Source of the DNA: Deinococcales bacterium
GTDB taxonomy: Bacteria > Deinococcota > Deinococci > Deinococcales > JAAFIG01
Assembly (NCBI GenBank): GCA_025352125.1
Contig: JANXTZ010000037.1
Location: 1 to 64,000, forward strand
DNA length: 64,000 nucleotides
Reading direction: 5' to 3'
The translations under genes and the position numbers were made by a program. Each line of letters begins with the position of its first letter. The first letter of the stretch is position 1. The notes under the pieces are model-generated. The model was given only the letters and a program-made list of their open reading frames with translations. It did no database searches and was not told the DNA's origin. Shown piece by piece: positions 1-64,000 of this stretch.

Positions 1-188
1 TATGAACTGTTAATCGCGTGACACTATGACTGCCAGTTCGGTTTGGGTTCACAACTGAATTTACCAGCTTTGTAGAATTGAGTAGCAACTAAAGTCTTGC
101 ACTAAAGTGCATGGCTTTGACCAGCGTCCTGATACAGTAAAATAGGATTCTCGAGCTTTTCAATCTTAAGATTGCATCAGGAGAATTA

Positions 189-1271
189 ATGGACCTTGCC
201 ACGCTTAAAAAAGAAGCAAAAAGCAAAAAAACCCTTGCATCTCGGTTGCTCGAGTTAGCCAGAAACGCCGACCCAACAGTGCAATACGCGGTGGCTGCAA
301 ACCCCAACGCCCCTCTTACTGCGCTCGAATACCTGAGTGGACACGGCAAATGGACGATTCTGAAAGCCGTGGCACTCAATCCCAATGTCAGTCTGGCGAT
401 TCTCGAGAAACTGGCTGCACACAAGCAAAATACGGTTTGTGTTGCCGTGGCGCAGAGCATTCAAACTCCAGCTCAACTGCTGGCAAAACTCGCACTGCAT
501 TCTGATACGATTGTGCGCCGCGCCGTCGTTGAGAACAAAAATTGCACCGATACCATTTACACAAAACTGAGCGAAGACCCCGACGCGTTGGTACGTTTCG
601 ATGTCGCGCTGCGCAACACGTGTCCAATCGCGGTTCTGGAAGAACTTGTCAAAGACCCCGATGAACAGGTTCGCGGCGCTGTCGCCTGGAACAGATTTAC
701 TCCGCGCAATCTGCTGCATGTTTTGGCAACCGACCCAGTTGCAAGTGTACGCGCCTCGACTGTCGAGAACCTTCATCGGCGCGGCGAAATCAATCTGTTG
801 CAATTCCTCGCTCGAGATGCACAACCCGAAGTTCGACTCGAGTTTGCCAAGCTTTACACTTGGATTCCGCAATTTCACCAGCATTTGGTGATCGACTCCG
901 ACGAGAAAGTACGTGACTGCCTGGCAGAGCACCAGACATTGCCACAAGCCGCCATACTTGTTCTGGCAAAAGACCCGAGCGACCAGGTGCGCGAAAAAAT
1001 CGCCAACCGCGACGACCTGAGCAAGGCTGCATTTGAAATCTTGCTCAAAGACCCAAACCCAGATGTCAGGCGAACTTTGGCTCACGCCAAAACCACAAAG
1101 CCTCCAGCTTGGATGCTCGAGCAACTGGCAATTGACCCAGATGAAAACGTGCGCTGGCAGGTGGCGTATGTCGGCGCGGCATCAAATCAAATCTTGAAAA
1201 AACTGACTCAAGACTCGAGCCAAAGTGTGCGCGATGCCGCCAATGAAACCCTCAGCCGAACTTGGCGATAA
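189..1271 (+). CDS. Leucine-rich-repeat-variant (LRV) / HEAT-like solenoid protein
   Basis: 360 residues, built almost entirely of repeats of about 22-24 residues that follow the pattern VR-x-AVA-x-NP-x-TP-x-x-LLEKLA-x-DPD. I count roughly 13 units. This is the LRV type of alpha-helical solenoid; its role is likely protein binding, and no catalytic residues are seen. No signal peptide, so cytoplasmic. ATG 189 is supported by AGGAG at 179-183. It is convergent with minDE, with a shared hairpin between. The partner is unknown; the family call is firm and the function is not. Confidence 0.8.
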   Translation: MDLATLKKEAKSKKTLASRLLELARNADPTVQYAVAANPNAPLTALEYLSGHGKWTILKAVALNPNVSLAILEKLAAHKQNTVCVAVAQSIQTPAQLLAKLALHSDTIVRRAVVENKNCTDTIYTKLSEDPDALVRFDVALRNTCPIAVLEELVKDPDEQVRGAVAWNRFTPRNLLHVLATDPVASVRASTVENLHRRGEINLLQFLARDAQPEVRLEFAKLYTWIPQFHQHLVIDSDEKVRDCLAEHQTLPQAAILVLAKDPSDQVREKIANRDDLSKAAFEILLKDPNPDVRRTLAHAKTTKPPAWMLEQLAIDPDENVRWQVAYVGAASNQILKKLTQDSSQSVRDAANETLSRTWR

Positions 1272-1304
1272 AAAAATTTAGATGGTTGGGACGAATCTCA
1301 ACCA
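1271..1304 (-). terminator. Intrinsic terminator of minDE
   Basis: A 9-bp stem (1283-1291 with 1296-1304, one G-U pair) with loop CGAA is followed on the minus strand by a T-rich run (1280-1271). It sits 28 bp beyond the minE stop. It overlaps the end of the LRV gene and may act weakly on the plus strand too. Confidence 0.75.
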
Positions 1305-1332
1305 CCTGTGTTCAATTTTGGAAACTCGAGCG

Positions 1333-1557
1333 TTAATCGAGCGGAATATCGGCAGTCAGAATCACGTTCTCGCCGCGCCTCTCCACATTTAAATTCGGTT
1401 GGCTTTTCGCGCCTGGAAAGTATTTTTGAATTACCGCCATCAGTTCGCTGCGCAGCATTTCCTCGCGTCCGGGCGGCAAACCCGCACGGTCGTATTGCAG
1501 CACGACTTGCAGACGGTTTTTCAGGGTGTCTTTTGTTTTGCGGCGTCCCCAGAACAT
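1333..1557 (-). CDS. minE: Cell division topological specificity factor MinE
   Basis: 74 residues, slightly shorter than the usual 80-90. The anti-MinCD segment is clear (RLQVVLQYDRAGLPP near residues 15-29), followed by the dimerisation region LMAVIQKYF and a C-terminal beta strand NVILTADIPL. MinE stimulates MinD ATPase and drives MinCD away from mid-cell. The ATG shares one base with the minD stop (TAATG), so the two are translationally coupled. No minC lies beside them. Confidence 0.93.
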   Translation of the reverse strand: MFWGRRKTKDTLKNRLQVVLQYDRAGLPPGREEMLRSELMAVIQKYFPGAKSQPNLNVERRGENVILTADIPLD

Positions 1558-4110: not shown

Positions 4111-5994
4111 ATGCGAAACTGGATTCGGCAATCTGTGGTCACACTTTTGGTGCTGGGTGGGATGGTACTGGGTCACGCGGCGCTGGCTCAGGGCGTGTCT
4201 GAAAGCCAGTTTCTCGAGGATTTGAGGTTGGGCGGCGTCCAAAGTGTGACGATTATGCCCAGCGGTAACGCCAGCATCTCGAGTTCAGGCGTGGTGCAAG
4301 TCAGCACGGCAAGAATTGTTTCAAAGGACGATCACAATTACGAGACACAGTTGTTGCTCGATAAACGCCTGTTCAATGAACTGAACCTGGCGCGGCAAAA
4401 GTACAACACCGAGTACCGCATCGTCGGCGCGAACCGAACCAACCGCTTTTTGCTGCTGGGTTTGCAAGCCTTGTTGCCGATTTTGTTGATCGGCGGCTTT
4501 TTGTGGTTTCGGTCAAGGGCATCCAAAGACGTGGGCGGCGCACCGAGTTTTGGCAAATCTCGAGCGCGACAGGTTGAAAAACCCAAAGTGACCTTCAGGG
4601 AAGTGGCGGGTTGCGACGAAGCCAAAGAGGAACTTGCCGAAATTGTGGACTTCTTAAAAAACCCGACGCGGTTTCATGACATCGGCGCAAGAATCCCCAA
4701 AGGCTGCCTGCTGATCGGACCCCCTGGCAGCGGCAAGACCCTGCTGGCAAAAGCCGTGGCGGGTGAGGCTCGAGTGCCTTTTTTTACAATTTCTGGCAGT
4801 GATTTTGTCGAGATGTTCGTTGGGGTCGGTGCCTCCAGGGTTCGGGATTTGTTCGAGCAAGCCCGCAAAGCCGCGCCGTGCATTATTTTTATTGACGAGA
4901 TCGACGCGGTTGGACGCAAACGCAGCTCGGGCATGAACGGCGGCAACGATGAACGCGAGCAAACACTAAATCAACTTCTGGTCGAAATGGACGGCTTTGA
5001 AACCAAGCACGACATCATCATTCTGGCGGCAACCAACCGCCCAGACGTGCTCGACAGCGCCCTGTTGCGCCCAGGTCGCTTTGACCGTCAGGTGGTGGTC
5101 GATGCGCCCGATGTCAAAGGACGCGAGGAAATCTTGCGGGTGCATTCCCGCAAAAAGCCGCTCGAGGAAAATGTTGACCTGAAACTGATCGCGCGGCGCA
5201 CCCCTGGCATGGTCGGAGCCGATCTCGAGAATCTGCTGAACGAAGCCGCACTGCTCGCGGCTCGAGCGGGTCGCAGGCGTATCGGCATCAAAGACCTGGA
5301 CGAGGCGGCTGACCGCGTGACCATGGGCGCTGCCAGAAAATCCAGGGTCATCGGGGAAGCCGACAAACGCATCACCGCCTTTCACGAGGTCGGTCACGCG
5401 CTGGCAGCCAACTTACTGCCCCTGGCAGACCGGGTGCACAAGTTGACCATTGTTCCAAGGGGCAGTGCGGCAGGCTTCATGCAGACCATGCCCAGCGAAC
5501 AAGACCACCTGACCCGCAATCAAATCCTGGAGCACATCACCGTTTTCATGGCGGGTCGCGCCGCCGAGGAACTCGAGTTTGGCGATGTCACCACGGGGGC
5601 GCAAAACGATTTTGCCCGAGCCACGCAACTGGCACGCAAGATGGTTGGCGAGTGGGGCATGAGCCAAACCCTTGGACATGTGGCACTCATCGAAGAGAAC
5701 CAAGATTATCTGGGCTTGGGCATTGAAAACCGTCAGTACAGCAACGCCACCGCCAAAGCGATAGACTTTGAGGTCAAAACCATCCTCGAGACGTGTTACG
5801 CAGCCGCCAAAACCCTGCTCGAGCAACACCGTCATTTGATGATGCGGGTGGTCGATGAACTCTTGATTCGTGAAACCCTGAATGCCGAGGAGTTTCAGAT
5901 GTTGCTCGAGGGTCAAGAATTGCCTGATGATGACTCGAGCACAACCCCCGATGAACCTTCAAGCCTCGGCAAAGGACACGGTTTTCCAGCTTAG
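4111..5994 (+). CDS. ftsH: ATP-dependent zinc metalloprotease FtsH
   Basis: 627 residues. N-terminal membrane or signal-type helix (5-25), short periplasmic domain, second membrane helix (about 112-131), then the AAA domain with Walker A GPPGSGKT (about 203-210), Walker B FIDEID (about 259) and second region of homology ([19 protein letters not shown]). The M41 peptidase site is HEVGH (about 425-429; HEAGH is more usual). Degrades membrane and regulatory proteins as a hexamer. No SD sequence is seen; TACCCT 9 bases before ATG 4111 is a weak leaderless candidate. The C-terminal tail is Ser/Thr/Pro/acidic. Divergent from the antiporter. Confidence 0.95.
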
Positions 5995-6038
5995 GGTTTT
6001 TAACCCATCCTCGAGCCTAAAGTCATCTCGAGTAATCT

Positions 6039-6065
6039 AAAATAAAAAACACGGCTCTTCGCCGT
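6039..6065 (-). terminator. Intrinsic terminator of meaB
   Basis: The stem ACGGC/GCCGT with a 5-base loop (6051-6065) is followed on the minus strand by a T-rich tract (6049-6039). It lies 67 bp beyond the meaB stop. Confidence 0.7.
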
Positions 6066-6132
6066 TGATTCCTATAGAGTAGCACGGTATTCAATTCTTG
6101 ACCCTTACAGCAGCACCTTCGGGCTTGGGTCG

Positions 6133-7101
6133 CTATTCGTCAAGATTATGCACTCGAATCGTGCTGTACGAAGTTTCTTTTTCAAGCGCCGCCGCAATCA
6201 ATTCTCGAGCGACCATGTTGGCAGTACTTTCACCACTTTGAACACGCATCAAAAGCTCGAGTTCGGATTGTTTCATGATGCCGCGCACCTCGTCGTTGAT
6301 CGCATTGATAATTTCAAACCGCGCACGCTCGAGCCTGCGGGTTTGCAAGCCAGCCTCGCCCAAATGCAGGCGATGCGCGTCGATTGCCTCGAGCAATTCT
6401 GGTATCCCCTGCCCCGTGCTGGCAATGGTTTGCACAATTTTTGCCCACCACGAGAATTCATCGTGCGGGTTGAACTCGAGCGCCGCCTGAATTTCGCGCA
6501 CCAACCTGTCCGCGCCTGGAATGTCGGCTTTGTTGACCGCGAACACATCCGCGATTTCCATGATGCCCGCCTTGAACGCCTGCACCGAATCGCCACCCGC
6601 AGGCGTCAACACCAGCACCGTGTGGTCGGCAACCCGCGCAATATCAATTTCAGATTGTCCCACGCCCACCGTCTCGAGAATCACACGGTCAAAACCAAAC
6701 GCCTCGAGGATTGACAGCACACCCACGGTTGCCTTTGCCAAACCACCAAGCGCACCGCGTGTCGCCATGGACCGCACGAACACGCCACGGTCTTGGTAAT
6801 GACGCCCCATGCGAATCCGGTCACCCAGAATTGCGCCGCCAGAAAACGGGCTGGACGGGTCAATTGCCAGCACCGCGACGCGTTCATTTCTGGCGCGACA
6901 AACCGCGATCAACTGGTCGGTCAGGGTGCTTTTACCCGCTCCAGGAGCGCCCGTCATGCCAATCACCACGGCAGAACGGCTTAACCCTCGCAGTGCCGCC
7001 AGCAGTTCGTCGCTTCGAGGATTCCCCGATTCAACAAGCGTGATGGCTCGAGCCAGGGCGCGTTCATCACCAGCTTGGAATTTTTTCAGGAGGTCTTGCA
7101 C
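6133..7101 (-). CDS. meaB: Methylmalonyl-CoA mutase-associated GTPase MeaB (ArgK family)
   Basis: 322 residues, the normal family length. P-loop GAPGAGKST (about 52-60), switch motif ETVGVGQSE (about 143), and guanine-specificity NKAD (about 194) identify the SIMIBI G3E GTPase MeaB. It protects and reloads adenosylcobalamin on methylmalonyl-CoA mutase. No mutase subunit is adjacent. GTG 7101 is set by TAAGAT six bases upstream; the ATG at 7109 is out of frame. Monocistronic by its own terminator. Confidence 0.93.
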   Translation of the reverse strand: MQDLLKKFQAGDERALARAITLVESGNPRSDELLAALRGLSRSAVVIGMTGAPGAGKSTLTDQLIAVCRARNERVAVLAIDPSSPFSGGAILGDRIRMGRHYQDRGVFVRSMATRGALGGLAKATVGVLSILEAFGFDRVILETVGVGQSEIDIARVADHTVLVLTPAGGDSVQAFKAGIMEIADVFAVNKADIPGADRLVREIQAALEFNPHDEFSWWAKIVQTIASTGQGIPELLEAIDAHRLHLGEAGLQTRRLERARFEIINAINDEVRGIMKQSELELLMRVQSGESTANMVARELIAAALEKETSYSTIRVHNLDE

Positions 7102-7107
7102 TCGAGC

Positions 7108-7113
7108 ATCTTA
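7108..7113 (-). promoter_or_regulatory. -10 box of meaB (leaderless)
   Basis: TAAGAT, six bases before GTG 7101, no SD sequence. Confidence 0.55.
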
Positions 7114-7160
7114 AAACGGATTGGTGCTCGAGGTTTGACCTCCAACAAGAATCTCGAGGG

Positions 7161-10100
7161 TTACCCCACCAATTGCCGCAGCAAAATCGGGTCTTGAATT
7201 TCAGAATCTTTGGCGAGCATTATCACTTTGGCAATCACCTCGGCGGTGCGCGGGTCGGAATCGGCAAACGGCAAGAAAATTCTGCCCCTGGCTTGGTTTG
7301 GCACGGCAACCAAACAAATTGCGCCGCCAGGTTGTTGATGCACCACCGCGCTGCCCAAGTGAACGCTGTAACGCCCAACCTGACCAGCAATCAACGCCAC
7401 GTTTTTCTCGAGCTTCACATTTTTTATCTTTAACAACCGCAAGGTTTCCTCGAGCAACGCCGCCCGCATTTCGGTGGTGCTTTGCGAGGCTTCGGGATCA
7501 ACCCCGCCCACGTGCGCCACGGACACGACCAAATCCAGGTCGCGCATGATTTCGGAGTACAAACGCTGTGGAATGCTTTCAAGCTCGAGCGCTTTGTAAT
7601 CGCCGCGTTTGGAAAACGATACCGTCTCGAGCGCGGGGGCTTCGACTTCGGCTGGGGTTGAATAGCCTTGTTTGCTAGCGATGTGCGCCGTGATGCCTTC
7701 CTTAAAAAACGTGCGGCTGGCATCGCCGTCGTAACTGACCACCCAAGCCCTCGAGCCAAGCAGCGAAGCGCTTTGACGCGGGTTGACCTGATGCCCCGCG
7801 TAACGGCTGGATTTGGTTTTCTCGAGTTTTTCGGCTTCAGTCAGCAAATACAATTCGCGGAAGATTTGCTTGAATGGTTGCTGGCGTTGCGCGGTAAAGT
7901 ATGCGCTTTGCCATTCAGACCAGGTTTTGGACTCGAACAAATCCACAGGGTGCGCCAACCTCAAACTCGAGGCTTTGATCTCGAGCAATTCACCGTTCGC
8001 ACTGACCAGGTTTTTACCGTCTGGCGAGAGAAAACCCATTTGAGCGTCATCGATAAAAACCAGTTGCTCGAGCATCGGACGGGCAATCGGGTGTTTGGTC
8101 AGGTCGCGCAATTCTTTGGCATTGAACGCATCGCCATGCACCATCGCACGTTCCAGGGACACGCGCATTCGGCTGCGGGAATTCTCGAGTTCCTTTTTTC
8201 GGGCACGAATTTCGATCACGGCTTCGTCTTTTTTCAGGTTGGCAGGAACGTCTTTTAAGGTTTTACCCGCTTTCAAAACTTCGAGCGTCGGTTCGCCGTC
8301 TTTTGTGACCGACAAAACCAATTCCACATTGTCTTTTTTCAGCTTCACCGCGCCTTTCGCCAGATCAGCCACGGCTCTTAACTCCATCGCCCACTCGAGC
8401 CGCATCGGGTCTGGAAACCCTGCGGTGCGTGCCAGATTCTCGAGCGCGATGCGTGACGCCAGACGCTCGGATTCTTTGCGCTGCGATCCGAATTGTTTGC
8501 TCTGCTTTAAAAAGGTTTGCACGAGTTCGTACCGCGCCAGCAGCACCGCGTCTTTGGCTTTGGGCAGCGGAATCAAACCCAGCGCCCGAACGCTGTCCTG
8601 ATGACGTTTGCTGGTGATTCGTTTGACCACATCGGCTTCGAGCAATTTGCCCAGCATCGCATCGGCAAATTGCTTCGCCCTGGCGTGACCCGTGCCTGAA
8701 GAAATGTACTTCGCGGCATCATAAAGTTGCGTCCAGCGTTTGTCGCCAAGGTCCTTGTACGCCTGATTAAACCAACCCACATCCACCGCGCCATCCACCA
8801 AATCCTGGGTCAAGAGCGGCGTGAGTTGCGCCATCTCGAGCCTCCAACCCTCGAGTTCGATGTCGTTGCTGAAACCACCGTCTTTGGTGTGTGCACGAAG
8901 CCAGTACATTGCATCACTAAGACCTTTCCAAGCGATATTTTTGGCGACAAATTGCGTCCATTGCGGCGCAAACAGCCCAAGCTCGAGAAGGCGTTGTTCG
9001 GGGATTTTGGCTGTTTTGATGGCTTTGTCAAAATCGGTTTGGGTGTCGCTGGCACTGGGGTAAACCGCTTTCAAAAGGTCGGAAAAAACCACCAGTCGCG
9101 GCGTTTGATCGTTGTAATAGTAACCGCCACCACGCGAAATATTGTCCTGCCCAATCATGACAAGAATCGGCATCAAGCGCCCCAACCCAGACAAAAACCG
9201 AATTCGAGTTGCGGCAATCGTGGCTGGCGTCGGCAAATCACCGCGTTGCAACTCGATCTCGAGCACACGCTCGCTGCATCGCTCGAGCATGGGTTCAAGT
9301 TCTGGATAGGCTCGCACGAATTGATCTGGTTTTTGCGTTAAGTGTTCGGTGAAACCATTGTTGCAAGGCGGGTTTTTGGTGGGACGCAGATGGCTCGCGC
9401 CGATCAAGGCTTCCATCACATCGGTTTGGTTGGCAATACCCGCTTTGAACGCCGCCATGAGATGCCAGTGGTTGATGGTGCGGCTAGAATTCCACCACAA
9501 GCGCAGGCTCATGCTGTGCTCGAGTTGCCAGGCTCGAGCTTGTTGGGCACTGGTCAGGGAGGCAACGCTGGGTTGGATTTTGACGACAATCGGCGTGAGC
9601 CTTTTAAACAACAGGTACGCCTTATTTTCTTTCAACGCGGCTTCATCGGGCAGTAACGCACCGTTTTCAACAAATTTTTGAAAACCTTGCTCGAGAAGCG
9701 GAACGCTTTGTGCCAATTGATCCTCGAGCAAATCGAGCGCAAAATCGTGTTCGCTTGCGGCTGGATACAACTCTTTGAGCCACTCCAAAATTTGCAGCAT
9801 GTTGTTCTCGAGGTGTTGATCTTCATCCTTATTTTTTTTGGTTTTTAGACTGCCAAAATAGTTTTTTTGCAAACCCAAATTGGTTGTGCCAGCGTTGTCA
9901 TTGTCAGGCTCGAGGTCATAATTAAAATCTTGATCGTAATAATCACCGTCATCGTCCGCGTCTGATTTAAACATAAACGGACGAATGGTGATGGCGCGTA
10001 AAATCTCGAGTCCGTCGGCATCGCGCTCTTTACCCGTGCGATTTTCAAACCACGCCGTCCAAACCTCTGAGAGTGGGAATTTCTTCCACTGCTCGAGAAG

Positions 10101-12041: not shown

Positions 12042-12044
12042 GAT

Positions 12045-12461
12045 TTATCCTCCGACCAAAGCAACAAGGCGTAAAAACATGATGTCCTGGCGAAGCTCGA
12101 GGCTCACCACGTCGGTCAAGTATTCGATTTGGGTTTCACCATTAAAAACGTAATACAGACCGTCTTGAAAGGCTTGAATTGCCGTTTGAATTGCCTCATC
12201 GGTGTTGACGTCTTGCGTAAATTCTTGTCCGCCCAAACTGATTTTGCCAGTGTCGGCTGCCTCGAGAAGTTGCGTTTCGGTCAGGACCCGCAAGAATTGA
12301 TTGTCGGCTTGACGTTCACGAAAGGCATTTACCTCGAGCGTCACAATTCTGGTTAAGAGTTCGGTCAGGGTGGGTTGGCTCGAGAAATTCTCGAGGCTGT
12401 AATCGCGTGTCGTCAACGCCTTTTTGCGCCCAAGTTGTTTGATGGTCATGGTTAAATTCAT
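12045..12461 (-). CDS. Hypothetical protein, probable partner of the DUF4132 protein
   Basis: 138 residues from ATG 12461. I do not recognise it. The C-terminal 80 residues look like a compact alpha/beta domain (LLEAADTGKISLGG, AIQAFQDGLYYVFNG) and end in hydrophobic LRLVALVGG. The frame is open to 12557, so ATG 12446 or an upstream ATG are alternatives; a weak CGGAA precedes 12461. It ends three bases before the DUF4132 start and holds that gene's SD sequence, so the two form an operon. Confidence 0.6.
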   Translation of the reverse strand: MNLTMTIKQLGRKKALTTRDYSLENFSSQPTLTELLTRIVTLEVNAFRERQADNQFLRVLTETQLLEAADTGKISLGGQEFTQDVNTDEAIQTAIQAFQDGLYYVFNGETQIEYLTDVVSLELRQDIMFLRLVALVGG

Positions 12462-12725
12462 GGTCGTTCCGTTCGACAAGTCCATGGCACAGTTTGGCAT
12501 GGTTGAAGTTGTGAGTTCATGAGTGCTATGTGGCAGTGTTGGTCCAATAAAAAACACCGCTCGAGAAAAAGCGATGTGCTTGGGTTAAATGCTGTTTCAC
12601 CTTGAGCTTTCTGGTTGATGGCTGTGATGTGCGAAATTTAAGGATGAGAACGTGTTGAGTCTCGAGATTTCTGTTATTGACGTAATTATAGCATTCGGTT
12701 TATGATTTTGCAAATTTCAACCCTA

Positions 12726-12942: not shown

Positions 12943-12948
12943 TGACCA

Positions 12949-12991
12949 TGCCCGTCAGCGATCCTGCCCGTTAGCGAATCTGCCCGCACGG
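12949..12991 (+). repeat. Short 16-bp tandem repeat
   Basis: Two 16-bp units, TGCCCGTCAGCGATCC and TGCCCGTTAGCGAATC, and a partial third (TGCCCGCACGG). Confidence 0.6.
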
Positions 12992-13202: not shown

Positions 13203-16200
13203 ATGTCCATCACCTCGAGCCAACGCTACCAATTCGTCCGAGAGCTAGGCTCTGGCGCGATGGGTCGTGTCAGCTTAGCGCTGGACAAGGACACTGGGCA
13301 GTTCGTGGCGGTCAAACGCCTGCACGAAGCCGTGGCGCTCCAGGGTGGCGTGAGGTTGCGCCGCGAGTTCAAGTCGCTCGAGCGCATTGACCACGAAAAC
13401 GTGGTGAAAGTGCTGGGCTTGGGCGAGGAGAATGCCATTCCGTACCTGGTCATGGAGTTCGTGCGCGGCACAGATTTGAACGACTGGCTGGGAGATACCC
13501 CGCCGCTCGAGAAGCTGATTCATGTTTTTGCGGGCATCGCCAGCGCGTTGACGGCGGTTCATGCGCAAGGCATCGTTCACCGCGATTTAAAACCCGAAAA
13601 TATTCGGGTAACCGAAACCGGAAGTGCCAAACTGATGGATTTTGGACTGGCGAAAACGCTCGAGGGCAGCGTGGCATTAACCAGGGAAGGCGCAGTTGTG
13701 GGCACAGTGTTGTACATGGCTCCCGAACAATGCCGAGGGCAGCAACTCGATTACCGCGCCGACCTGTATGCTTTGGGCGCAGTCTTGTTCAGCGCCCTGA
13801 CCGGACGCCCACCTTTTATGGGCGAAGGCATTGTGCAAGTCATCATGCAGCATATTCAAGGCACGCCCCCAGCCCCAAAAGACATCAACCCAAATGTTCC
13901 CGAAAACTTGAACGCACTGGTGCTTCAGATGCTGGCAAAGAACCCGCTCGAGCGTCCACAGAGCGCGTTTGCCGTCAGAGAAGCGCTGCTTGCCTCGCTG
14001 GAATCAAATCTGCAAGACACCATCGAAATCTCGAGCGAAATTGCTCGAGCTGACGCGGTACTGATTGCGCCGCTAATTGGACGCGACCCCGAGATGGGTG
14101 TTTTAAATGCGTTCCTCGAGTCTGGAACAGGTTTGATCGCCGTGACGGGCGATGTTGGCGTGGGCAAAACCAGGTTGTTGCGGACATTGAGTGAAAGACT
14201 TCAAGGACAGGGCAAACGCCTGGTGATTGCCGAAGCCATTGTGGATGACCCCACACCATTTGGTACGATCTCGAGGTTGATTGCCAACCTTGGAAAACAC
14301 CACAGTGATGTGCTCGAAAAACTGTCAGACAGCGCCAAAGGCGAACTCGGGCGCATCTCGAGCAAATTGGGGTTTGTACCCACCAGCGACAGCAACTTGC
14401 CGCCCGAGGTGGCGCGTTTAAAACTGTTTGAAGCCTTCACCGAACTGCTCGAGCAGATTTCCAAAACATCCATTCTGGCGTTTGAAAACCTGCACTGGGC
14501 TGACTCGAGCACCCTGGAATTGCTGGCGCACAGCAGTCGCGCCCTCGAGAATGCCAAAATGGTCATGACGTACAGGCTTGAAGACCTGCCCGAAAACGCC
14601 ACGCACCCAAAAGGCTTGACTCCCAAACGTACCGTTCACCTCGAGCCACTGACCGAACTCTTGACGCTCGAGTTGCTGCGGGCATTGATGGACGACGAAC
14701 TTGAACCCGCGCTCGAGGTTGAACTGGTGTCACGTGCTGGCGGCAACCCCTGGGTGCTCGAGGAACGACTCAAAGCCATGCTCGAATCGGGCGCGGTCTA
14801 CCGGCGGGCGGGCGTCTACGAGTGGAATCGAAACCTGACTGGCTTGCCCGAAAGCCTGAACGACCTGCTCAGTCACCGCATCACCGCGCTGTCGCAACCC
14901 GCCCTCGAGTTTGCCCGAGCCGCCAGCGTGCTGGGTCGCGCATTTTTATTTGAAGACGTTCGAGCGCTGCTCGACTGGTCAGACGATGCCGCATTGGATA
15001 CGCTCGAGACGCTGGTTCGCGCCAAACTGGTGATCGAAACCCCAGGCACGAACGGCGAGGGATTCAGGTTCACGCACCCCAGTTACGCCGAACTGCTGGC
15101 GGTTGGTTTGATGAGCCTCAAACGCCGTCGCCTGCACGCCAAAGCCGCCACCCTGCTCGAGACTCGTGCCGCGCCGCTCGAACTGACCGAACATTACCTT
15201 GAAGCTGGCATGTTTGAGCAAACCCTGCAAAAAGGCTTGGAGGCGGGTTTGCTTGCCCAGAATACCTTCGCCTACCCGCAAGCCGAACGCGCCTACCGCA
15301 TGGCACTGACCGCCAGCAGCAAACTCGAGCATGAGCGCCTGGAGACGATGCGGGTGCGGCATCAACTGGCGGAAGTGCTGTCGTTCATGGGACGCAATGA
15401 CGAAGCCATAAGTTTATGGAAAACTGTGATGGACAGCGCCGAATTGCTCGAGGGTGGACTTGAAGCATCCTTGAACGCTCGAGTCAGCGTCGCCAAAGCC
15501 TTGCGGTTGCGCGGTTCGTTGGATGAGGCACTGCGTTTGGTGGGCGAACCCAAACGCGAAGAACCCGCGTATGCGGCATTGTGCCTCGAGCAGAGCGCGG
15601 TTTTACGAGAATTGCAAAGTCCAAAGCTGGCAAAACACTTTGGACTCGAGGCGTTGAGTGCGTATAAACAGATTGGCGATCTTGTTGGGCAAACGTTAGC
15701 CATGTCTGGTTTAGCTCAGATTGAACGAGCAACGGGACGCATGAGTCGATCTGAATACTTGTTGAAATTGGCAATTCAGTTGGCAGAAAAATCGCAAAAC
15801 CAGCATTTGCTTACCAATGTTTGGAATGAATTGGGTCTCACATTTTACACACAATATTCTCTGAACGAAGCTGCATTGGCTTGGGAAAAAGCTGTAAATT
15901 TTGCAGGAAAAATTGGTGATGTACGGGTAGAAATCGTTTTGGGAATCAATATTGCTTTAATTGAAATGGACAGAAATGATTTTACTCAAGCCAAGTCCCG
16001 CCTTCAGCGTTCACAAGCATTGGTAAAACGTAGTGGCTTAACGAACTATGAACCGCACACGGTATTAAATATTTCTATTTGCGAATACGCCCTTGGAAAT
16101 CTAGAAATTGCAAGAGAACAACTAGAACAGTTAAGGTTTCATCAATTTGAGTCTTTGGCGCAAGGTTGGATGACACGAATCACACTTGAACTTGGCGATG

Positions 16201-31379: not shown

Positions 31380-32675
31380 TTAAGGAACAGTTACTGAAAT
31401 ACTGGTTGACACTCCTGTTGGGCAACCATCGGCGTTCAAATCAACACTGTATGTGCCAGTGGCGACACTCGAGCCAACGGTCAGCGCCAAGCTGCTGGTG
31501 GTGCCCGTGGTGCTGTTCGGGGTGAACACCCCCGAGATCGTGGTGCTCGAGGCAGCGCCCACCGAAGTTCCTGCGACACTCAACACCAGTGCTTGTGTGC
31601 AATTTGCGCCACGTTCAAACTCGAGGTCGACGGATTTGCTCGAACCTTTGGCAATGTTTTCGTCGTGCGGAATGCCCTGGGTTGGGAAGAGAATGTTCAA
31701 CCCATTTGGGTTGAGGTCGCTGGTGCTGAAAATAAAACCACTTTCCGCGCCGCTGCTGCTGATCGCACCAAACTTTGTTTTGACGCGTACCGTATAACTG
31801 GTTTTCGGATTGGAGGGAATCACTGTCGATGTGCCTGTGACCGAGATCGGATTGCCGTAATTGCCCACCCCATTGCCCAAATCAGCCGTATTCGATTTCA
31901 ACTCGAGCGTGTAACCCGTAGCGTCTGGCACGGCATCCCAGGTCAGAAACAATTTCTTGGCATAATCGCTGCGGCTTTGCGTGATGTTGGTCGTTTCAGG
32001 CAGCACTTGAAAGAACTTCTGGTCACTGGCGACAGCCCCAGAGGTGATCGTCTCGAGGATCGGGTCTGTGGAATTGATGTCGTGCGGCGCGACACTAACG
32101 TTTAAAATGTTCCAACCCTGCGCCAGGCTGACATTGTTGTAGGTATACGTGTACTTTGGTGTGCCTGTCGTGGTGGTGCAAGTGCCGCTGATGGTCGTGT
32201 CTTTGCTGGCGTAAAGACGCAGCGTGCTGTTGCTGCCAGGATCAAAAAACAAAGCCGATGCTTGAGACTTGTTCGCCTGATAGACAGCACCACCGTTCAA
32301 GGACAGATTGAGGTTGCTGGTCAACAGAACGGTCACGGCTTTGCTGTCGCTGGGGGTTATGGTGATCGTGCCACCGCTGCAACTGCCCAAGCCGGTCGAG
32401 CCATCACTGAGTTCTGCCGCCGTGGGCGTGGGCAACACCAGGTTGCCGAACGAACCGTCGGCGGCAATCGGCACCGAACTGGTGGTTTGGTTGTTCGAGA
32501 AGTTGAAGACCCGAGCGTAGAGCGTGCCTGTCTTGCCCGCAATCCAGTTGGAAATTGTGCCTGAAACGGGCGAACCGTTGGCGACCAGTGGCGGTGGGGT
32601 CGTGCCACCCCCTCCGCAAGCGCCAAGAAACGAGGTGAACGCCAAACCGAGTGCCAACATTCCAAACTTTTTCAT
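31380..32675 (-). CDS. Lipoprotein with fibronectin-type-III-like domain
   Basis: 431 residues. Signal peptide with lipobox FLGAC (Cys20), then a GGGG linker. Residues about 140-200 contain GTC and QGWNIL, a module shared with the C-terminus of the lipoprotein at 25.6 kb. An FN3-like stretch follows (LFLTWDAVPDATGYTLEL, TSYTVRVKTKFG, about 245-310), then a Ser/Thr-rich beta domain. SD GGGAGG precedes ATG 32675. Probably surface-anchored; function unknown. Confidence 0.75.
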   Translation of the reverse strand: MKKFGMLALGLAFTSFLGACGGGGTTPPPLVANGSPVSGTISNWIAGKTGTLYARVFNFSNNQTTSSVPIAADGSFGNLVLPTPTAAELSDGSTGLGSCSGGTITITPSDSKAVTVLLTSNLNLSLNGGAVYQANKSQASALFFDPGSNSTLRLYASKDTTISGTCTTTTGTPKYTYTYNNVSLAQGWNILNVSVAPHDINSTDPILETITSGAVASDQKFFQVLPETTNITQSRSDYAKKLFLTWDAVPDATGYTLELKSNTADLGNGVGNYGNPISVTGTSTVIPSNPKTSYTVRVKTKFGAISSSGAESGFIFSTSDLNPNGLNILFPTQGIPHDENIAKGSSKSVDLEFERGANCTQALVLSVAGTSVGAASSTTISGVFTPNSTTGTTSSLALTVGSSVATGTYSVDLNADGCPTGVSTSISVTVP

Positions 32676-32742
32676 ACAAAACCTCCCAGTCCAGCCCGAG
32701 TGTCTCTCGGGTGGCTTACGATGAACGAATTTTCTAGGGCTT

Positions 32743-33720
32743 TTACTTGTGGGGCGTCAGTTGCAGCGTGGTCAAACCGCGAATCACGGCTTTGCCGGCG
32801 TCACCGTTCGGGTAGGCTTGGTAGACGCTTTGATCGGGCAGGTTGAGCGCCAGTGACAGCAAGATTGGGCGAGGCTGATCGTTTGGCGCGAGCACCACGC
32901 CCAAATACTCCTGGGCGGCTTTGTTGAACGCCGAATGCCAGACTTTTAAAGAAACTGGTTTCGCGCCTGGGCAGGTCACAATTTCTTGCGGGGCAACGCC
33001 GCGTCCGCCAGAATCGGCAAATCCCGTGTCCAGCCCGAGCACCGTCAGTGGCTTGCCGCTTGCCGACTTGCCCAGCAAGACCATGACGTACGCCGAGCCG
33101 TCAACACCTTTGATCGAACATTTGTCTGATGTCATGTTGATGCTCGAGTATTTCAGTGCGATTGATCCCTCCGCCAGAATCGTGAAGGTCGAATCGTGCG
33201 GGATGCCGTCGCCGCCTTTAATCAATAACGTCTCCCCCACTCGAGCCGAGGTCAGCGTGCCTTTCCCGTCAATCACCGAGGTGTAACCGCCCGTGTCGTC
33301 TTTGATCTCGAGCGTGGAGCTAAAATTCACGTCGTAACCGATGCTCGGTGCGGGTTGGGCGGGGGTACTGGCAGCCTCGCAGGGCTTGCCGGTAATCTCG
33401 AGTTTCGTGCCGTTGAATGCAGCTTGAAATCCAAGCGCTCGAGCCGAAACAACGCCGTCCAGAAACGGTTGACGCTCACGCAACACAAAGTCCAGGGTGG
33501 TGATTTTCTCGCAGAATTTGACACTGACCTTGTTTGGGGCAAGCCCCGCCATTGATGCCCCGAGGCTGGCGAGAAATGGTCGGGCGCTGACCAAGACCGT
33601 GTTGTTTTCAACGATGGCAGGAATCGAGCTGCTTTTGCCGTTGACGACCACCGTGATGTTGGCAATTGCCAGTGCCAAACCGATGAGGAGCGCCGTAAAA
33701 ATGATTGCCAGTGTTCGCAT
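32743..33720 (-). CDS. Secreted protein with copper-amine-oxidase-N-like domain
   Basis: 325 residues from ATG 33720 (MRTLAIIFTALLIGLALAIA signal peptide; AAAGGG upstream). Residues 20-110 resemble the stalk domain seen in Cu-amine-oxidase N-terminal families (VVVNGKSSSIPAIVENNTVLVSARPF in outline), here as a stand-alone binding or structural unit. The rest is unrecognised beta-rich sequence with several Cys. Same strand and spacing as the next gene, a distant relative. Confidence 0.65.
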   Translation of the reverse strand: MRTLAIIFTALLIGLALAIANITVVVNGKSSSIPAIVENNTVLVSARPFLASLGASMAGLAPNKVSVKFCEKITTLDFVLRERQPFLDGVVSARALGFQAAFNGTKLEITGKPCEAASTPAQPAPSIGYDVNFSSTLEIKDDTGGYTSVIDGKGTLTSARVGETLLIKGGDGIPHDSTFTILAEGSIALKYSSINMTSDKCSIKGVDGSAYVMVLLGKSASGKPLTVLGLDTGFADSGGRGVAPQEIVTCPGAKPVSLKVWHSAFNKAAQEYLGVVLAPNDQPRPILLSLALNLPDQSVYQAYPNGDAGKAVIRGLTTLQLTPHK

Positions 33721-40373: not shown

Positions 40374-40988
40374 TTAACCCCGCAAGAATCCACCCAGAGC
40401 CTCATCGTCCTCGAGCGGCGGTAAATCCAAAATGGAAGAGAGTCCAAACTCGAGCAAAAATTTTTCAGTGGTGCCAAACAACATCGGACGTCCAATCACC
40501 TCTTTGCGCCCCACGACCTTGACCAACTCGCGCTCCTGAAGCGTATCCAAAGTGCTGGACGCGCTCGAGCCTCGCATCAACTCGACCTCGCCGCGCGTGA
40601 TCGGTTGTTTGTACGCCACAATCGCCAGCGTCTCGAGCGCCGCCGCCGATAATGCAGGCAATGGTGGTGGCGCAAGCAGTGGCTCGAGCAGCGCCACCAC
40701 GGCGGGCGCGACAATCAGGCGGTAACCGCCCGCCACGGCTTCGATCTCAAAACCCAGACACGCCTCCTGAAAACGCCTCCGCAACATTTCGATCAATCGG
40801 TGTGAGGATTCGACAGGCAAACCCAACAGATTGGCAATCTCTTTGGGTTTCACCGGACGTCCCGCCGCCAAGAGCGCCGCCGAAAGCGTCTCGAGCAAAT
40901 TTGCCTCGGCAGGCACAGTCACTCCAGGCGTCTGTGCAAGCTCGAGTGCCTCGCCTTGGACAAGCTCCAAATCTGGAGTTTGGCTCAC
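40374..40988 (-). CDS. scpB: Segregation and condensation protein B
   Basis: 204 residues. Two winged-helix domains: LLETLSAALLAAGRPVKPKEIANLL (about 31-55) and ALETLAIVAYKQPITRGEVELMRG (about 117-140), with the conserved GRKEVIGRPMLFGTT. Kleisin-interacting subunit of SMC-ScpAB. scpA is not adjacent. GTG 40988 has AGGGA upstream. Divergent from pilC; the 48-bp gap holds both promoters. Confidence 0.93.
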   Translation of the reverse strand: MSQTPDLELVQGEALELAQTPGVTVPAEANLLETLSAALLAAGRPVKPKEIANLLGLPVESSHRLIEMLRRRFQEACLGFEIEAVAGGYRLIVAPAVVALLEPLLAPPPLPALSAAALETLAIVAYKQPITRGEVELMRGSSASSTLDTLQERELVKVVGRKEVIGRPMLFGTTEKFLLEFGLSSILDLPPLEDDEALGGFLRG

Positions 40989-41000
40989 GTGAAAAATTCC

Positions 41001-41029
41001 CTGTCAAAACCCATATCAGGGTTTATACT
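41001..41029 (+). promoter_or_regulatory. Promoter of pilC (leaderless)
   Basis: CTGTCA (41001-41006), 17-bp spacer, TATACT (41024-41029), then seven bases to ATG 41037. No SD sequence. Confidence 0.65.
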
Positions 41030-41036
41030 ACCCAAT

Positions 41037-42263
41037 ATGGCGACATTCACCTATAAAGTTCGGGATGCGGCAGGAAAAGTCATTTCGTCTTCAATGGAAG
41101 CAGACGATGCAAAACAAGTGCGCGATGTGCTGCGCGAAAAAAATCTGTTCATCGTTGCCATCAATGCCCCAAAAGTTGGCTTGAACGCCGACATCAAAAT
41201 TCCTGGACTGGGTGACGGAACACCCAACTTAAAAGCCGTTTCATTGTTCTCGAGACAACTTGCCACCATGATTGACGCCGGTTTGCCACTGGTGCAATCG
41301 CTGGCGATTCTGGGCAAGCAAGTTGAAGACAAGGGAATGCAAAAAATCTTGAAAAATGTTCGTAACGACGTTGAAGGCGGTGTGCCTTTCTCGGATGCCA
41401 TTTCCAAATACCCGAAGGTTTTCAGCCGTTTGTTCCTCAACTTGGTCCGCGCCGGTGAAATCTCGGGTACCCTCGACACGGTTCTTGACCGTGTTGCCAT
41501 TTTCCAAGAAAAAGAATTGGCACTGCGCGGTAAAATTCGCAGCGCTTTGACTTACCCTGTTATCGTTTTGGTTTTTGCGCTCGGCATTACCTATTTCTTG
41601 CTGACCACCATCGTGCCGCAATTCGGTAATATCCTCATTCAACTTGGCGGCGAACTGCCTTTTATTACCAAAATGCTCTTGGCTATTTCTGCTTTCTTAC
41701 AAAGCTGGTGGGGCGGTGGCATCATGCTTTTTAGCATTGTCGGTTCGGTGCTTGCCTACAATGCCTACAACCGCACCAAACAGGGACGTTACAACCTCGA
41801 TGCTTTCAAACTCAAAATCCCAGTTTTTGGCAACCTCTTATCAAAAGCCGGCATGGCATCGTTTGCCAGAACCTTCTCACTCTTGCTCGCTAGCGGCGTG
41901 AACATCATTGAAACCCTCGAGATCACCAAAGGCACGGCTGGCAATGCCGTGATCGAAGAAGCCATTGAAAACGCTAAAAATGCTGTACAACAGGGCGAAC
42001 AAATCTCGCAACCGCTCGGGGCATCACCAGTCTTTCCACCGATGGTCGTATCCATGATTGCCATTGGCGAGGAGACAGGCGGTTTGGACGCCATGCTCGA
42101 CAAAGTTGCCGATTATTACGAACGCGAAGTCGATGAAGCCGTCGATCAACTGACCGCCGCGCTCGAGCCGCTAATGATCATGTTCTTGGGTGTGATCGTC
42201 GGTACGATTGTGGCTGGTATGTTCTTACCGATGTTCTCGATCATCGGGCAACTTTCTAAATAA
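41037..42263 (+). CDS. pilC: Type IV pilus/type II secretion inner-membrane platform protein PilC
   Basis: 408 residues from ATG 41037. Two GspF/T2SF domains: LFSRQLATMIDAGLPLVQSL (about 70-89) and SFARTFSLLLASGVNIIETL (about 273-292), with three membrane helices. Anchors the pilus assembly ATPase at the inner membrane; in this phylum type IV pili serve motility and DNA uptake. No other pil gene is beside it. CTCGAG is nearly absent (none between 41256 and 41918). Confidence 0.93.
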   Translation: MATFTYKVRDAAGKVISSSMEADDAKQVRDVLREKNLFIVAINAPKVGLNADIKIPGLGDGTPNLKAVSLFSRQLATMIDAGLPLVQSLAILGKQVEDKGMQKILKNVRNDVEGGVPFSDAISKYPKVFSRLFLNLVRAGEISGTLDTVLDRVAIFQEKELALRGKIRSALTYPVIVLVFALGITYFLLTTIVPQFGNILIQLGGELPFITKMLLAISAFLQSWWGGGIMLFSIVGSVLAYNAYNRTKQGRYNLDAFKLKIPVFGNLLSKAGMASFARTFSLLLASGVNIIETLEITKGTAGNAVIEEAIENAKNAVQQGEQISQPLGASPVFPPMVVSMIAIGEETGGLDAMLDKVADYYEREVDEAVDQLTAALEPLMIMFLGVIVGTIVAGMFLPMFSIIGQLSK

Positions 42264-61809: not shown

Positions 61810-61877
61810 TAAACCTAACTCGAGCCTTTTCACCCTCATTTCAGGTTGAAACTGACCCTCATCTCAGGTCAAACCGC

Positions 61878-61883
61878 TAAAGT
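61878..61883 (+). promoter_or_regulatory. -10 box of the response regulator gene (leaderless)
   Basis: TAAAGT nine bases before GTG 61893, no SD sequence. Confidence 0.4.
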
Positions 61884-61892
61884 AGTCGTATT

Positions 61893-62558
61893 GTGACCAC
61901 GATTTTAATTGTCGAAGATGACCTTGGCGTGCGCGAATCCCTGGCGCTGGGTTTAAAACTCGAGGGTTACACCGTGCTCGAGGCGGGTGATGCCTCAAGC
62001 GGTTTGCGCTGCATGGCGCAGCAACCCGATCTGGTGATTTTGGACTTGCTGCTGCCAGGCTCGAGCGGTTTTAGCGTGCTGACCGAAATTCGGTTGCGCT
62101 CGAGTGTGCCAGTCATGATGCTGACCGCACTCGACGAACTCGAGTACAAACTGAAGGGTTTGCGCGGCGGTGCAGACGATTACGTGGTGAAGCCCTATTC
62201 ACTCTCCGAGGTGCTGGCGCGAATCGAGGTCTTGTTGCGGCGCAGCAAAACCGAGTCGGGCAGACGCCAGTTCGAGGATGTCACACTTGACCCCGAGACG
62301 ATGGAAGTCTGGCGGAACGGCAAGCACGTTGATCTGACCGTCAAGGGTTTTCGGTTGCTGTCCGTGTTGCTCGAGCACCCAAAACGCGTGATGCCCCGCG
62401 AAACACTGATGAATTTGATCTGGGGCGATGAGGTTGACCCGAACACGCTGGATGTCTTGATTGCCTCGGCACGTCGCGCCCTTGGCGAACCGAGTTTGAT
62501 TCAGACGGTGCGCGGTGTTGGTTACGCCTTGAAACGCAAGGACACGGTGCAATCGTGA
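61893..62558 (+). CDS. OmpR/PhoB-family response regulator
   Basis: 221 residues. Receiver domain 1-115 with acidic pocket VEDD, phospho-Asp in VILDLLLPG, Thr in MLTAL and VKPYSL. Winged-helix DNA-binding domain 125-215 (LTVKGFRLLSVLLEHPKRVM, then LIQTVRGVGYALK). Stop overlaps the kinase start in GTGA, one operon. Confidence 0.95.
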   Translation: MTTILIVEDDLGVRESLALGLKLEGYTVLEAGDASSGLRCMAQQPDLVILDLLLPGSSGFSVLTEIRLRSSVPVMMLTALDELEYKLKGLRGGADDYVVKPYSLSEVLARIEVLLRRSKTESGRRQFEDVTLDPETMEVWRNGKHVDLTVKGFRLLSVLLEHPKRVMPRETLMNLIWGDEVDPNTLDVLIASARRALGEPSLIQTVRGVGYALKRKDTVQS

Positions 62559-64000
62559 CCCTGCGAACTCGAGTGTTGCTGTGGTTGATGCCAGCTTTGG
62601 CAGTGTTGGCAGTCGGTCAGGTGTGGTTATTAAATTCGTTGGTCACTCGAGATTCGGGATTAACCAAAACCATTGCACAAAACTCGAACAATCCTGCGGG
62701 TCAAATTGGTGTGCCAACTCGAGAATTCAATACTGGTTTGCCCGTGCCAACGGCTGCGGATGCCATCAGCGCACCAAGTGCCGAAAAAGCCCAGAAGCAA
62801 GCCAGTCTCGCCAAACCAAACTCGAGCGGCGCGAGCTTATCTGCTGGCTCGAGCAACAACGTTTCCACGCCATCAGCAGCACCGATCAAACCCGTCGCAC
62901 CACCAAAACCAGCAGTAACAACGCCAACATCTCGAGCAGAAGAAAATGTGCCATCAATGAAACCAAGTCCAGCACAAATTCCAGCCGCTCCAGTGGTACA
63001 AGCAAAGCCCCCAGCAACGCCAGCGCCCTCGAGTACACCCGCCGCGCTTGAACCTGAAACCTCGGGCAACCAAACCAGTGCACAACCTGTGGATGACAAA
63101 GCGGATCAATTTGCGGAACTCAAGCAACTCTCAAAAAATGCGACTGTCTTGGTGCGTCAACGCAACGGCAACCTCGAGTTTGAAACCTTTGGCAACCCGA
63201 ACAATTGGATTTTACTCGCCAGCGTAGGATTGTTGATTCTGGCTTTGCTGCTGGGCGCGTTTGGGGTGCGCCGTTCGCTGTCACCGCTTTACAGTTTGGC
63301 AAGTGAAATCGAGCGCCGCAATGCCAGCAGCCTCGAGATGATCGCCGTGCCGCCACTGCCCGAATTGCGTCCCGCCGTGAATGCCCTCAACCGTTTGCTT
63401 GCCGACATGAATGACACCCTCGAGCGTCTGAAAACCCAGGAATCCAGCGCCAGAAGGTTCGCGTACAATGCCTCGCACGAGTTGCGCAACCCGTTGACCG
63501 CCGCCCGAAATTATCTCGAGGTGCTGACGCGTCACCCAACCAGAACCGAAGCCACGCAGGGCGCTTTGGGTGCGCTTGACCGTACCGAACGGATTCTCTC
63601 GAGTTTGCTGCAACTGGCAAGATTGGAAGGGCAAGGCATTCCAAAACGCGAACGGATTGACCTCTCGAGTTTTCTCGAAGCGCACTTTGACGTGCCAGTC
63701 CAAGGCACGGGCGAGGTCTGGGCAGAACGCGATTTGCTCGAACTCAGTCTCGAGAATCTGGTCAACAACGCCAGCAACCACGCGGGCGGCGCCAAAAACA
63801 TTCGGGTCGAGGCTCGAGTTGACGGCACTTGGCTTTGGGTCGAGGACACAGGACCAGGCTTTAACGCCGAATTGCTGCCAAAAGCCTTTGAGCCGTTCAC
63901 CAAGCACGGTACAGGCACGGGACTGGGCTTGGCGATAGTCGAAGCCGTCGCTCGAGTTCATGGAGGCACTGTACGCGCCGAGAACCGTACCGAGGGCGGC
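62555..64000 (+). CDS. Sensor histidine kinase (incomplete, runs off the window)
   Basis: 482 codons with no stop. First membrane helix 7-28, then about 165 residues outside rich in Pro, Ala, Ser and Thr (no globular sensor fold, about 40-200), second helix (about 222-240), HAMP-like linker, HisKA with phospho-His308 in SHELRNPLTAARNYLEVL, and HATPase with NLVNNASNHAGG, VEDTGPGF and TGTGLGLAIVEAVARVHGG. The low-complexity outer region suggests a stress or cell-wall tether. Nearly complete; only the last few residues are missing. Confidence 0.93.
   Translation, partial: MTLRTRVLLWLMPALAVLAVGQVWLLNSLVTRDSGLTKTIAQNSNNPAGQIGVPTREFNTGLPVPTAADAISAPSAEKAQKQASLAKPNSSGASLSAGSSNNVSTPSAAPIKPVAPPKPAVTTPTSRAEENVPSMKPSPAQIPAAPVVQAKPPATPAPSSTPAALEPETSGNQTSAQPVDDKADQFAELKQLSKNATVLVRQRNGNLEFETFGNPNNWILLASVGLLILALLLGAFGVRRSLSPLYSLASEIERRNASSLEMIAVPPLPELRPAVNALNRLLADMNDTLERLKTQESSARRFAYNASHELRNPLTAARNYLEVLTRHPTRTEATQGALGALDRTERILSSLLQLARLEGQGIPKRERIDLSSFLEAHFDVPVQGTGEVWAERDLLELSLENLVNNASNHAGGAKNIRVEARVDGTWLWVEDTGPGFNAELLPKAFEPFTKHGTGTGLGLAIVEAVARVHGGTVRAENRTEGG

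Follow-up and report, generated by a model that had tools for sequence, protein, structure and literature searches.

The hexamer CTCGAG is a highly iterated palindrome in part of the Deinococcota

The question raised by this 64,000 bp stretch of DNA (hereafter the window) is why a single six-base palindrome should recur throughout it. CTCGAG is found 471 times, against 17.7 copies expected from base composition, and the window-wide iteration described in the original prediction is therefore confirmed. Both strands are alike in this count, because the word is its own reverse complement. The relevant features are:

1..64000, no strand: CTCGAG, 471 copies, distributed through the entire window
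13203..15650, no strand: sample stretch with 25 copies of CTCGAG, within an ORF (13203-16613) for a protein kinase-AAA-TPR protein
32051..33142 (0-based positions), no strand: longest CTCGAG-free gap, 1,091 bp
40956..42263, + strand: pilC-like gene, by which the host was placed and for which relatives from the family were aligned

The frequency first proposed, about one copy per 100 bp, captured the density of the iteration but overstated it: the mean gap in the window is 136 bp (median 99 bp), and the 4.53 Mb genome has 28,178 copies, or one per 161 bp; the 26 or so copies claimed for the sample stretch became 25 on recounting. The reversed word, GAGCTC, is present just nine times in the whole genome. 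In a 464 kb sample, CTCGAG was enriched 22.8-fold over expectation. Markov models of the window predicted 12.4 copies at first order, 30.7 at second, 142 at third and 393 at maximal order; we read the high-order expectations as inflated, since CTCGAG itself yields much of the CTCG, TCGA and CGAG counts on which they draw. Where it is not part of the hexamer, TCGA is not enriched (226 occurrences in the window, 248 expected).

Codon or dipeptide usage alone had been singled out at the outset as the counter-explanation, and 61% of coding copies (1,508 of 2,460) do lie in the phase encoding Leu-Glu. However, in 374 genes, defined as long open reading frames rather than as the output of a trained gene finder, 50 synonymous shuffles gave only 359 ± 17 copies against the 2,460 observed. 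The excess over such shuffles was 5-9 times in the family genomes (9.3-fold in G002, 5.2-fold in G003), 3.4-fold in Meiothermus ruber and 0.5-fold in the relative G007. The other two phases are themselves enriched 11-12-fold, and in the 48 genes called in the window the copies divide 265/51/84 between phases 0, 1 and 2, with 69 more in intergenic DNA and two spanning a gene edge; the occurrence in all phases and on either strand's genes that had been anticipated is thus borne out. Intergenic densities are 7.21 per kb in G000, 5.28 in G002 and 11.47 in G003, where 0.22, 0.17 and 0.30 would be expected, which amounts to a 31-38-fold excess in the window's family. In G000 and G003 they surpass the coding density; in G002 and M. 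ruber the intergenic density does not. Hence codon or dipeptide usage was rejected as the cause, and is almost certainly not the source of the excess. The bias operates at the level of DNA: it is seen in all reading phases, in intergenic sequence and on two sampled Thermaceae plasmids. It is strong enough to alter protein composition, as Leu-Glu dipeptides are raised to 2.45, 2.24 and 2.46 times expectation in G000, G002 and G003, whilst Glu-Leu stands at 1.03, 1.04 and 1.00; the corresponding values in G007 are 1.13 and 1.11. The surplus is around 1,200 Leu-Glu dipeptides per 134,000 residues.

Comparison of 111 genomes places the phenomenon in part of the Deinococcota, where it peaks in the window's family and in some members of an adjacent one. 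All four sampled genomes of the family (G000-G003) have 5.9-6.5 CTCGAG per kb, with sampled G+C contents of 44-60%. Densities are lower in Meiothermus, Allomeiothermus and Oceanithermus, and there is little or no excess in G007 and in Thermus-like genomes; Deinococcus was sampled as four plasmids (140 kb), on which no excess was found. Plasmids of A. silvanus and O. profundus are enriched 6.5- and 8.3-fold respectively, and G008 11-fold (in 20 kb), the latter still having 2.9 copies per kb in a genome of 2.3 Mb. Separately, at least 80 IMG/VR loci, which had been chosen for CTCGAG, gave a median of 6.9-fold. Density correlates with genome size (Spearman 0.76 across the 86 of 111 genomes that were at least 90% complete, 25 rows being dropped; 0.51 across 55 genomes when the window's family, G004, G006 and group g13, inferred to be Thermus, are removed), a relationship that is confounded with G+C content and phylogeny.

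The arrangement of the copies is informative at short range. Pairs of complete copies separated by 7-14 bp are under-represented: 33 were observed in G000 where about 150 were expected, 31 against 120 in G002, and 74 against 162 in G003, although at 7-8 bp the last of these has no deficit (35 against 40). M. ruber, with 6 pairs against about 8, has too few to reveal exclusion. Near-miss hexamers beside a CTCGAG show no such scarcity, with ratios of 0.72-1.12 in G000 and G002, and 0.78-1.01 in G003. Avoidance of hairpins was rejected as the main cause, as other 6 bp inverted repeats in G000 stand at 0.87-0.99; it may account for a small share, given ratios of 0.82-0.94 for other inverted repeats of 4-GC hexamers at 7-14 bp. 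Slippage between direct repeats was likewise rejected, other direct repeats having ratios of 1.18-1.22 at 9-14 bp (0.68 at 7-8 bp). The exclusion between nearby copies points instead to a bound protein. On a larger scale, counts in bins of 2 kb or more are over-dispersed in three family genomes (variance/mean 1.4-3.9), which is at odds with tight control of density. A post hoc observation from 5 kb bins of M. ruber is that the evenness of CTCGAG was third lowest of 98 words, to which no weight is given here.

Individual sites turn over between relatives. In aligned genes where Leu-Glu is conserved, a CTCGAG in the first genome was matched by CTCGAG in the second in 117 of 160 cases, and where the first genome had another sequence the second had CTCGAG in 25 of 48. 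One-off words of HIPs differ chiefly in their outermost bases (PMC4390886). Here the commonest near miss is TTCGAG/CTCGAA, at 1.78 times expectation, with CCCGAG at 1.37, CTTGAG at 1.14, and ATCGAG and GTCGAG at around 1.0; as CTTGAG/CTCAAG is not depleted, very-short-patch repair of deaminated CTTGAG was rejected. The hexamer does not appear to be the core of a longer perfect palindrome, which was rejected because the proportion of sites lacking any extension is 79-83% in G000 and G003. The intergenic hairpins first proposed were assessed through pairing directly beyond the six bases, which is missing from 79% of both intergenic (n = 440) and coding (n = 2,456) sites. Flank preferences vary from genome to genome, a point against the reading favoured below.

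The reading that we lean towards is that CTCGAG is an analogue of HIP1, maintained through weak selection or a bias in repair, in either case by way of a putative CTCGAG-binding protein. Such a protein would cover about 15-20 bp, and the palindromic site suggests that it would be dimeric. Each added copy would be weakly favoured, either through selection or through a preference for the site in repair or conversion; the scaled strength might be about 2.3-3.9 per site, estimated as the log odds of the motif codon against a synonymous near miss on the assumption of equilibrium. The likeliest form of the agent would be an abundant chromosomal protein or a site-specific enzyme, for which the density of sites matters but their individual positions do not. 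Later work on selection for HIP1 reportedly exists. More tentatively, CTCGAG might serve as an address, repeated across the whole genome, for an abundant and as yet undescribed chromosomal protein in the Deinococcota, its approximately 28,000 sites, mutually exclusive over about 15 bp, making up a binding scaffold encoded in the sequence. If so, this scaffold has rewritten the proteome, and has nearly been lost in some lineages with small genomes.

A rather unlikely alternative is that the iteration has no function at the site itself: a CTCGAG methyltransferase would mark the word and mismatch repair would favour the marked strand, driving a ratchet of the kind put forward by Elhai for the HIPs of cyanobacteria. 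In cyanobacteria a putative cognate methyltransferase accompanies the over-represented palindrome in each genome that has one (PMC4390886), Nocardia has orphan CTCGAG methyltransferases (PMC4752239), and every genome of the window's family has several methyltransferases, of specificity not readable from sequence. However, when 57 loci from eight genomes were compared at a threshold of 40% identity, no group spanned all four family genomes, the broadest comprising G001, G002 and G006; it is possible that unrelated methyltransferases share CTCGAG specificity across the family. Weak PF01555 matches in G000 (C76) and G002 (C66) were rejected as a shared orphan enzyme, the proteins being about 22% identical. 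G008, despite its 11-fold enrichment, has no PF00145, PF01555 or PF02086 match among the matches listed. Furthermore, the published model saturates at about one site per 1,000 bp, against six here together with exclusion at 15 bp. Of the other roles first proposed, chromosome organisation and a by-product of repair are still candidates; a by-product of restriction is not supported. The XhoI/PaeR7I restriction-modification systems recognise exactly this sequence, but matches to PF04555, the XhoI endonuclease family, were found in only four of the 111 genomes and in none of G000-G003 (91-94% complete), so such a system was rejected for the window's family. In G012, G013 and G014 the match adjoins one to PF01555, whilst that in G108 has internal stops. 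Restriction by XhoI would be expected to deplete sites, and G012-G014 have 0.70-0.97 CTCGAG per kb against 1.65-1.97 in the congeneric G009-G011.

Three further explanations were considered. A Chi-like signal for recombination or processing, advantageous at any position, would fit the over-representation on both chromosome and plasmids. Chi, however, is read in a single orientation by an enzyme of the RecBCD/AddAB type, which a palindrome does not provide, and it is far sparser in E. coli than CTCGAG is here; we regard this explanation as improbable. So too is a context-dependent mutation bias involving no recognising protein: coding and intergenic DNA are both affected, and the presence of one-transition neighbours among the commoner near misses fits decay of the word, but with TCGA outside the hexamer at expectation all six bases must be read together, and exclusion within 15 bp is hard to produce by point mutation. 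Least probable of the three is an uptake sequence for transformation. The strand-symmetric over-representation and the pilC-like gene in the window could be taken to favour this role, which had been among those first proposed; however, the uptake sequences known to us are longer, non-palindromic and present about once per kb, so a palindrome at around six per kb seems very unlikely to be one, and the excess is absent from Thermus-like genomes, which we take to be competent.

CTCGAG represents a second, denser case of a highly iterated palindrome (HIP), in another phylum. Among the open-access papers listed by our search, no report of CTCGAG iteration in the Deinococcota was found. The relationship between HIPs and methyltransferases has been described as a mystery (Elhai 2015, PMC4390886). 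That no methyltransferase was common to the family among the loci compared, together with the site density and the short-range exclusion, adds new constraints, which tell against the published repair ratchet. The milder carriers in culture, M. ruber and Allomeiothermus silvanus, together with a close relative without excess (G007), open up tests not available in cyanobacteria. That proteins are bent by a DNA word is also relevant to protein phylogenies and to work on codon bias in the Deinococcota.

Among known systems, the orphan CTCGAG methyltransferase system of Nocardia involves the identical hexamer, but its copies there are concentrated in the interval from dnaA to a DNA polymerase III gene (PMC4752239), whereas here it is genome-wide; at the start of the M. 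ruber contig the 5 kb bins are no denser than elsewhere, although these may not lie at dnaA. HIP1 (GCGATCGC) and the alternate HIPs provide the closest parallel, although they differ in several respects. HIPs are by criterion cyanobacterial, and the present host, which has not been cultured, belongs to the Deinococcota and is related to Thermus and Meiothermus. CTCGAG is 67% G+C, below the 75-100% of the alternate HIPs that replace HIP1 (PMC4390886). It occurs at about 6,000 per Mb; the 8-mers of HIP1 range from 300 to 2,700 per Mb, although the difference in word length precludes a strict comparison, and HIPs in general number 1,000-2,000 per Mb (PMC4390886). It is found throughout a family, whereas alternate HIPs are sporadic (PMC4390886). 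No methyltransferase common to the four family genomes emerged from the 57 loci, and short-range exclusion is seen for CTCGAG, a property not known to have been examined for HIP1. The shared properties are a palindrome far beyond chance, not explained by codons and present in both coding and intergenic DNA, typical of a lineage and low in some relatives (PMC4390886). HIP1 is itself low: its core, CGATCG, is absent from the window and at most 0.1 of expectation in the 464 kb sample, just as other HIPs are found in genomes with little HIP1 (PMC4390886). Hence the likeness to HIP1 first proposed for this locus holds in kind, both being palindromes iterated across the genomes of one lineage and nearly absent from some of its relatives.

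The hexamer CTCGAG is iterated across the whole window, as the original prediction held: 471 copies are present, against 17.7 expected from base composition, and the sample 13203-15650, for which about 26 had been reported, contains 25. It is the commonest hexamer of the window, and the next nine, down to TCGAGG, are mostly overlaps of CTCGAG itself; TCGA beyond CTCGAG occurs at expectation (226 against 248). The whole-genome count proposed as a check found 28,178 copies in the 4,534,309 bp of the source genome (G000), whereas the reverse, GAGCTC, occurs nine times. A 464 kb sample of the genome (the window and 20 stretches of 20 kb) shows a 22.8-fold excess of CTCGAG, and 29 of the 64 palindromic hexamers are at or below 0.1 of expectation.

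GGCC is absent from window 1-64000 (327 expected); in samples it stands at about 0.01 of expectation in G000, G001 and G002, at 0.29 in G003, the fourth genome of the same family (f1), and at 1.0 in G006, from the neighbouring family f2. Many further palindromes are likewise almost missing. Also in window 1-64000, GGAG/CTCC reaches 0.3 of its expected count, and numerous words containing CTA/TAG reach 0.1-0.25. One gene was described from its domain matches:

7161-12041, minus strand: protein of 1,626 aa with DUF5724, DUF4132 and DUF7737 domains

The CTCGAG bias operates at the level of the DNA, not of the protein. Codon usage, which had been raised as a possible explanation, does not account for it: 374 G000 genes contain 2,460 copies, against 359 ± 17 after synonymous shuffling (50 shuffles), with observed and shuffled counts of 1,508 and 277 in phase 0, 395 and 33 in phase 1, and 557 and 49 in phase 2. 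With 20 shuffles, the equivalent ratio was 9.3 in G002, 5.2 in G003, 3.4 in the milder enriched relative Meiothermus ruber and 0.5 in G007, of f2. Intergenic densities per kb in G000, G002, G003, M. ruber and G007 are 7.21, 5.28, 11.47, 1.60 and 0.44, or respectively 32, 31, 38, 5 and 1.3 times the value expected from composition; in G002 and M. ruber they lie below the coding densities. In the G000 count, CTCGAG encodes 1,508 of 2,032 Leu-Glu pairs, and Leu-Glu and Glu-Leu stand at 2.45 and 1.03 of expectation in G000, 2.24 and 1.04 in G002, 2.46 and 1.00 in G003, 1.51 and 0.89 in M. ruber, and 1.13 and 1.11 in G007; in smaller samples, G096 and G083 have the motif but Leu-Glu at 0.85 and 1.18 of expectation, a slight excess at most. 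For GAG rather than GAA after CTC, and CTC rather than CTT before GAG, the log odds compared with other contexts are 2.3-3.9 for f1, 2.1-2.5 for M. ruber and 0.05-0.42 for G007, values that represent a scaled per-site strength under an assumption of equilibrium.

Copies rarely lie close together. Relative to a baseline of pairs at 60-200 bp, CTCGAG pairs 7-14 bp apart number 33 against about 150 in G000, 31 against 120 in G002 and 74 against 162 in G003, where the deficit at 7-8 bp is small (35 against 40); in M. ruber the numbers (six against about eight) are too small to assess exclusion. Near-miss hexamers 7-14 bp from a CTCGAG site have ratios of 0.72-1.12, and those for other 6 bp inverted repeats in G000 genes are 0.89 (7-8 bp), 0.87 (9-11 bp) and 0.99 (12-14 bp). 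Leu-Glu pairs separated by two, three and four residues in G000 number 17, 19 and 36 (longer-range mean 32), but those with both members spelled CTCGAG only 0, 3 and 6 (mean 17.7). Hence the raw material is present beside existing sites, yet is seldom completed there, from which we infer that a protein footprint underlies the exclusion. Past 20-30 bp spacing is near random, except that gaps of 400-1,000 bp in G000 and G002 are rarer than under an exponential distribution, and counts are over-dispersed in bins of at least 2 kb.

Orthologue comparisons show that sites turn over, with descent leaving some trace and sites often created anew. Among 49 reciprocal best pairs of genes from three f1 genome pairs, Leu-Glu was retained in 160 of 256 cases where the first genome has CTCGAG and in 48 of 79 where it is spelled otherwise; the second genome used CTCGAG in 117 of these 160 and 25 of these 48, respectively. 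All six bases were identical in 1,840 of 8,623 other conserved dipeptides, and Glu-Leu was retained in 56 of 120 cases between f1 genomes. Between f1 and G007, CTCGAG-spelled Leu-Glu was retained in 29 of 122 cases and Glu-Leu in 25 of 75. A separate comparison of window genes agrees, although the gene sets overlap and the counts are not summed.

Across the 111 genomes of the order, a set that a phylum-level search reproduced, densities (based on rounded genome sizes, G000 excepted) are 5.90-6.46 per kb in all four f1 genomes. Those in f2 are 6.25 in G006, 3.57 in G004 and 0.30 in G007; G005, at 58% completeness and excluded from the comparison of density with genome size, has 7.7. The genera g10-11 have 2.45-3.42 per kb, the Meiothermus-like g12 1.39-3.07 (16 entries used), g13 0.63-1.09 (25 entries) and the family f5 0.28-2.27 (27 entries); GAGCTC is about as frequent as CTCGAG in g13 and part of f3. 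Coding densities in f1 samples of 44%, 53% and 60% G+C are 5.72, 6.11 and 5.94 per kb. Plasmid stretches contain 66 copies in Allomeiothermus silvanus (10.2 expected), 85 in Oceanithermus profundus (10.3 expected) and 0, 0, 2 and 9 in four from Deinococcus (13.4, 12.9, 10.2 and 9.9 expected), whilst 58 loci from outside the phylum have 56 (165 expected). The two Deinococcus stretches without a copy, L342 and L343, are each 40 kb long and are the opposite of the window. The host of the window is not cyanobacterial; its pilC-like protein best matches a Thermus-type NCBIfam family (665.6 bits, slightly below the cut-off of 700). Islands almost devoid of CTCGAG, perhaps recently acquired DNA, occur in M. 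ruber (L419, ~4500-15800; mostly unassigned genes and an SLT transglycosylase) and G000 (L138, ~12800-16400; sugar-transporter genes).

Profile searches of the 111 genomes (METHYLTRANSFERASES) matched PF00145 in 29, PF01555 in 78, PF07669 in 81 and PF02086 in 49, and the XhoI endonuclease (PF04555) in four (G012, G013, G014 and G108). The XhoI-family gene of G108 (C1:1093892-1096226; L205/L206) has internal stops; the methyltransferase next to it has relatives in Meiothermus-like genomes and shares 49% identity with a G024 enzyme. The G024 enzyme, used as a query (E 1e-20), matches nine of the 111 genomes, only G003 in f1, and these matches do not track CTCGAG density. G008, with CTCGAG 11-fold enriched in 20 kb, has no match to PF00145, PF01555 or PF02086. 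When 57 loci of eight genomes, among the matches listed, were grouped with an identity threshold of 40%, the methyltransferase group with the widest span was a C5 enzyme shared by G001, G002 and G006; no group was common to the four f1 genomes. Since specificity is unreadable from sequence, the genomes are MAGs (91-94% complete) and the methyltransferase profiles searched were PF00145, PF01555, PF07669 and PF02086, the f1 genomes may have unrelated methyltransferases of the same specificity. In G000, a C5 methyltransferase frame (L036:2940-4856, contig C40) contains an insert that is probably an intein, as it has Hint and LAGLIDADG domains; a type ISP-like restriction-modification protein (L037:323-3406, contig C57), 72% identical to a G003 protein, has its best hit in the PDB to an adenine-specific DNA methyltransferase (7lo5).

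These facts are consistent with complete CTCGAG sites being weakly preferred throughout the genome, the preference acting through a sequence-specific protein, in the favoured form a CTCGAG-specific protein whose work would depend on how dense the sites are. The published repair ratchet, as set out in the available part of its source, expects about one site per kb, in contrast to six here, and that part is silent on exclusion at 15 bp (PMC4390886). In Nocardia, CTCGAG is known as the motif of an orphan methyltransferase (PMC4752239). The proposed likeness to HIP1 is upheld in kind, CTCGAG being a highly iterated palindrome. However, relative to those described in the available part of Elhai 2015 (PMC4390886), it has no common methyltransferase in the loci compared, differs in phylum, base composition and density, exhibits short-range exclusion, and persists through a family.
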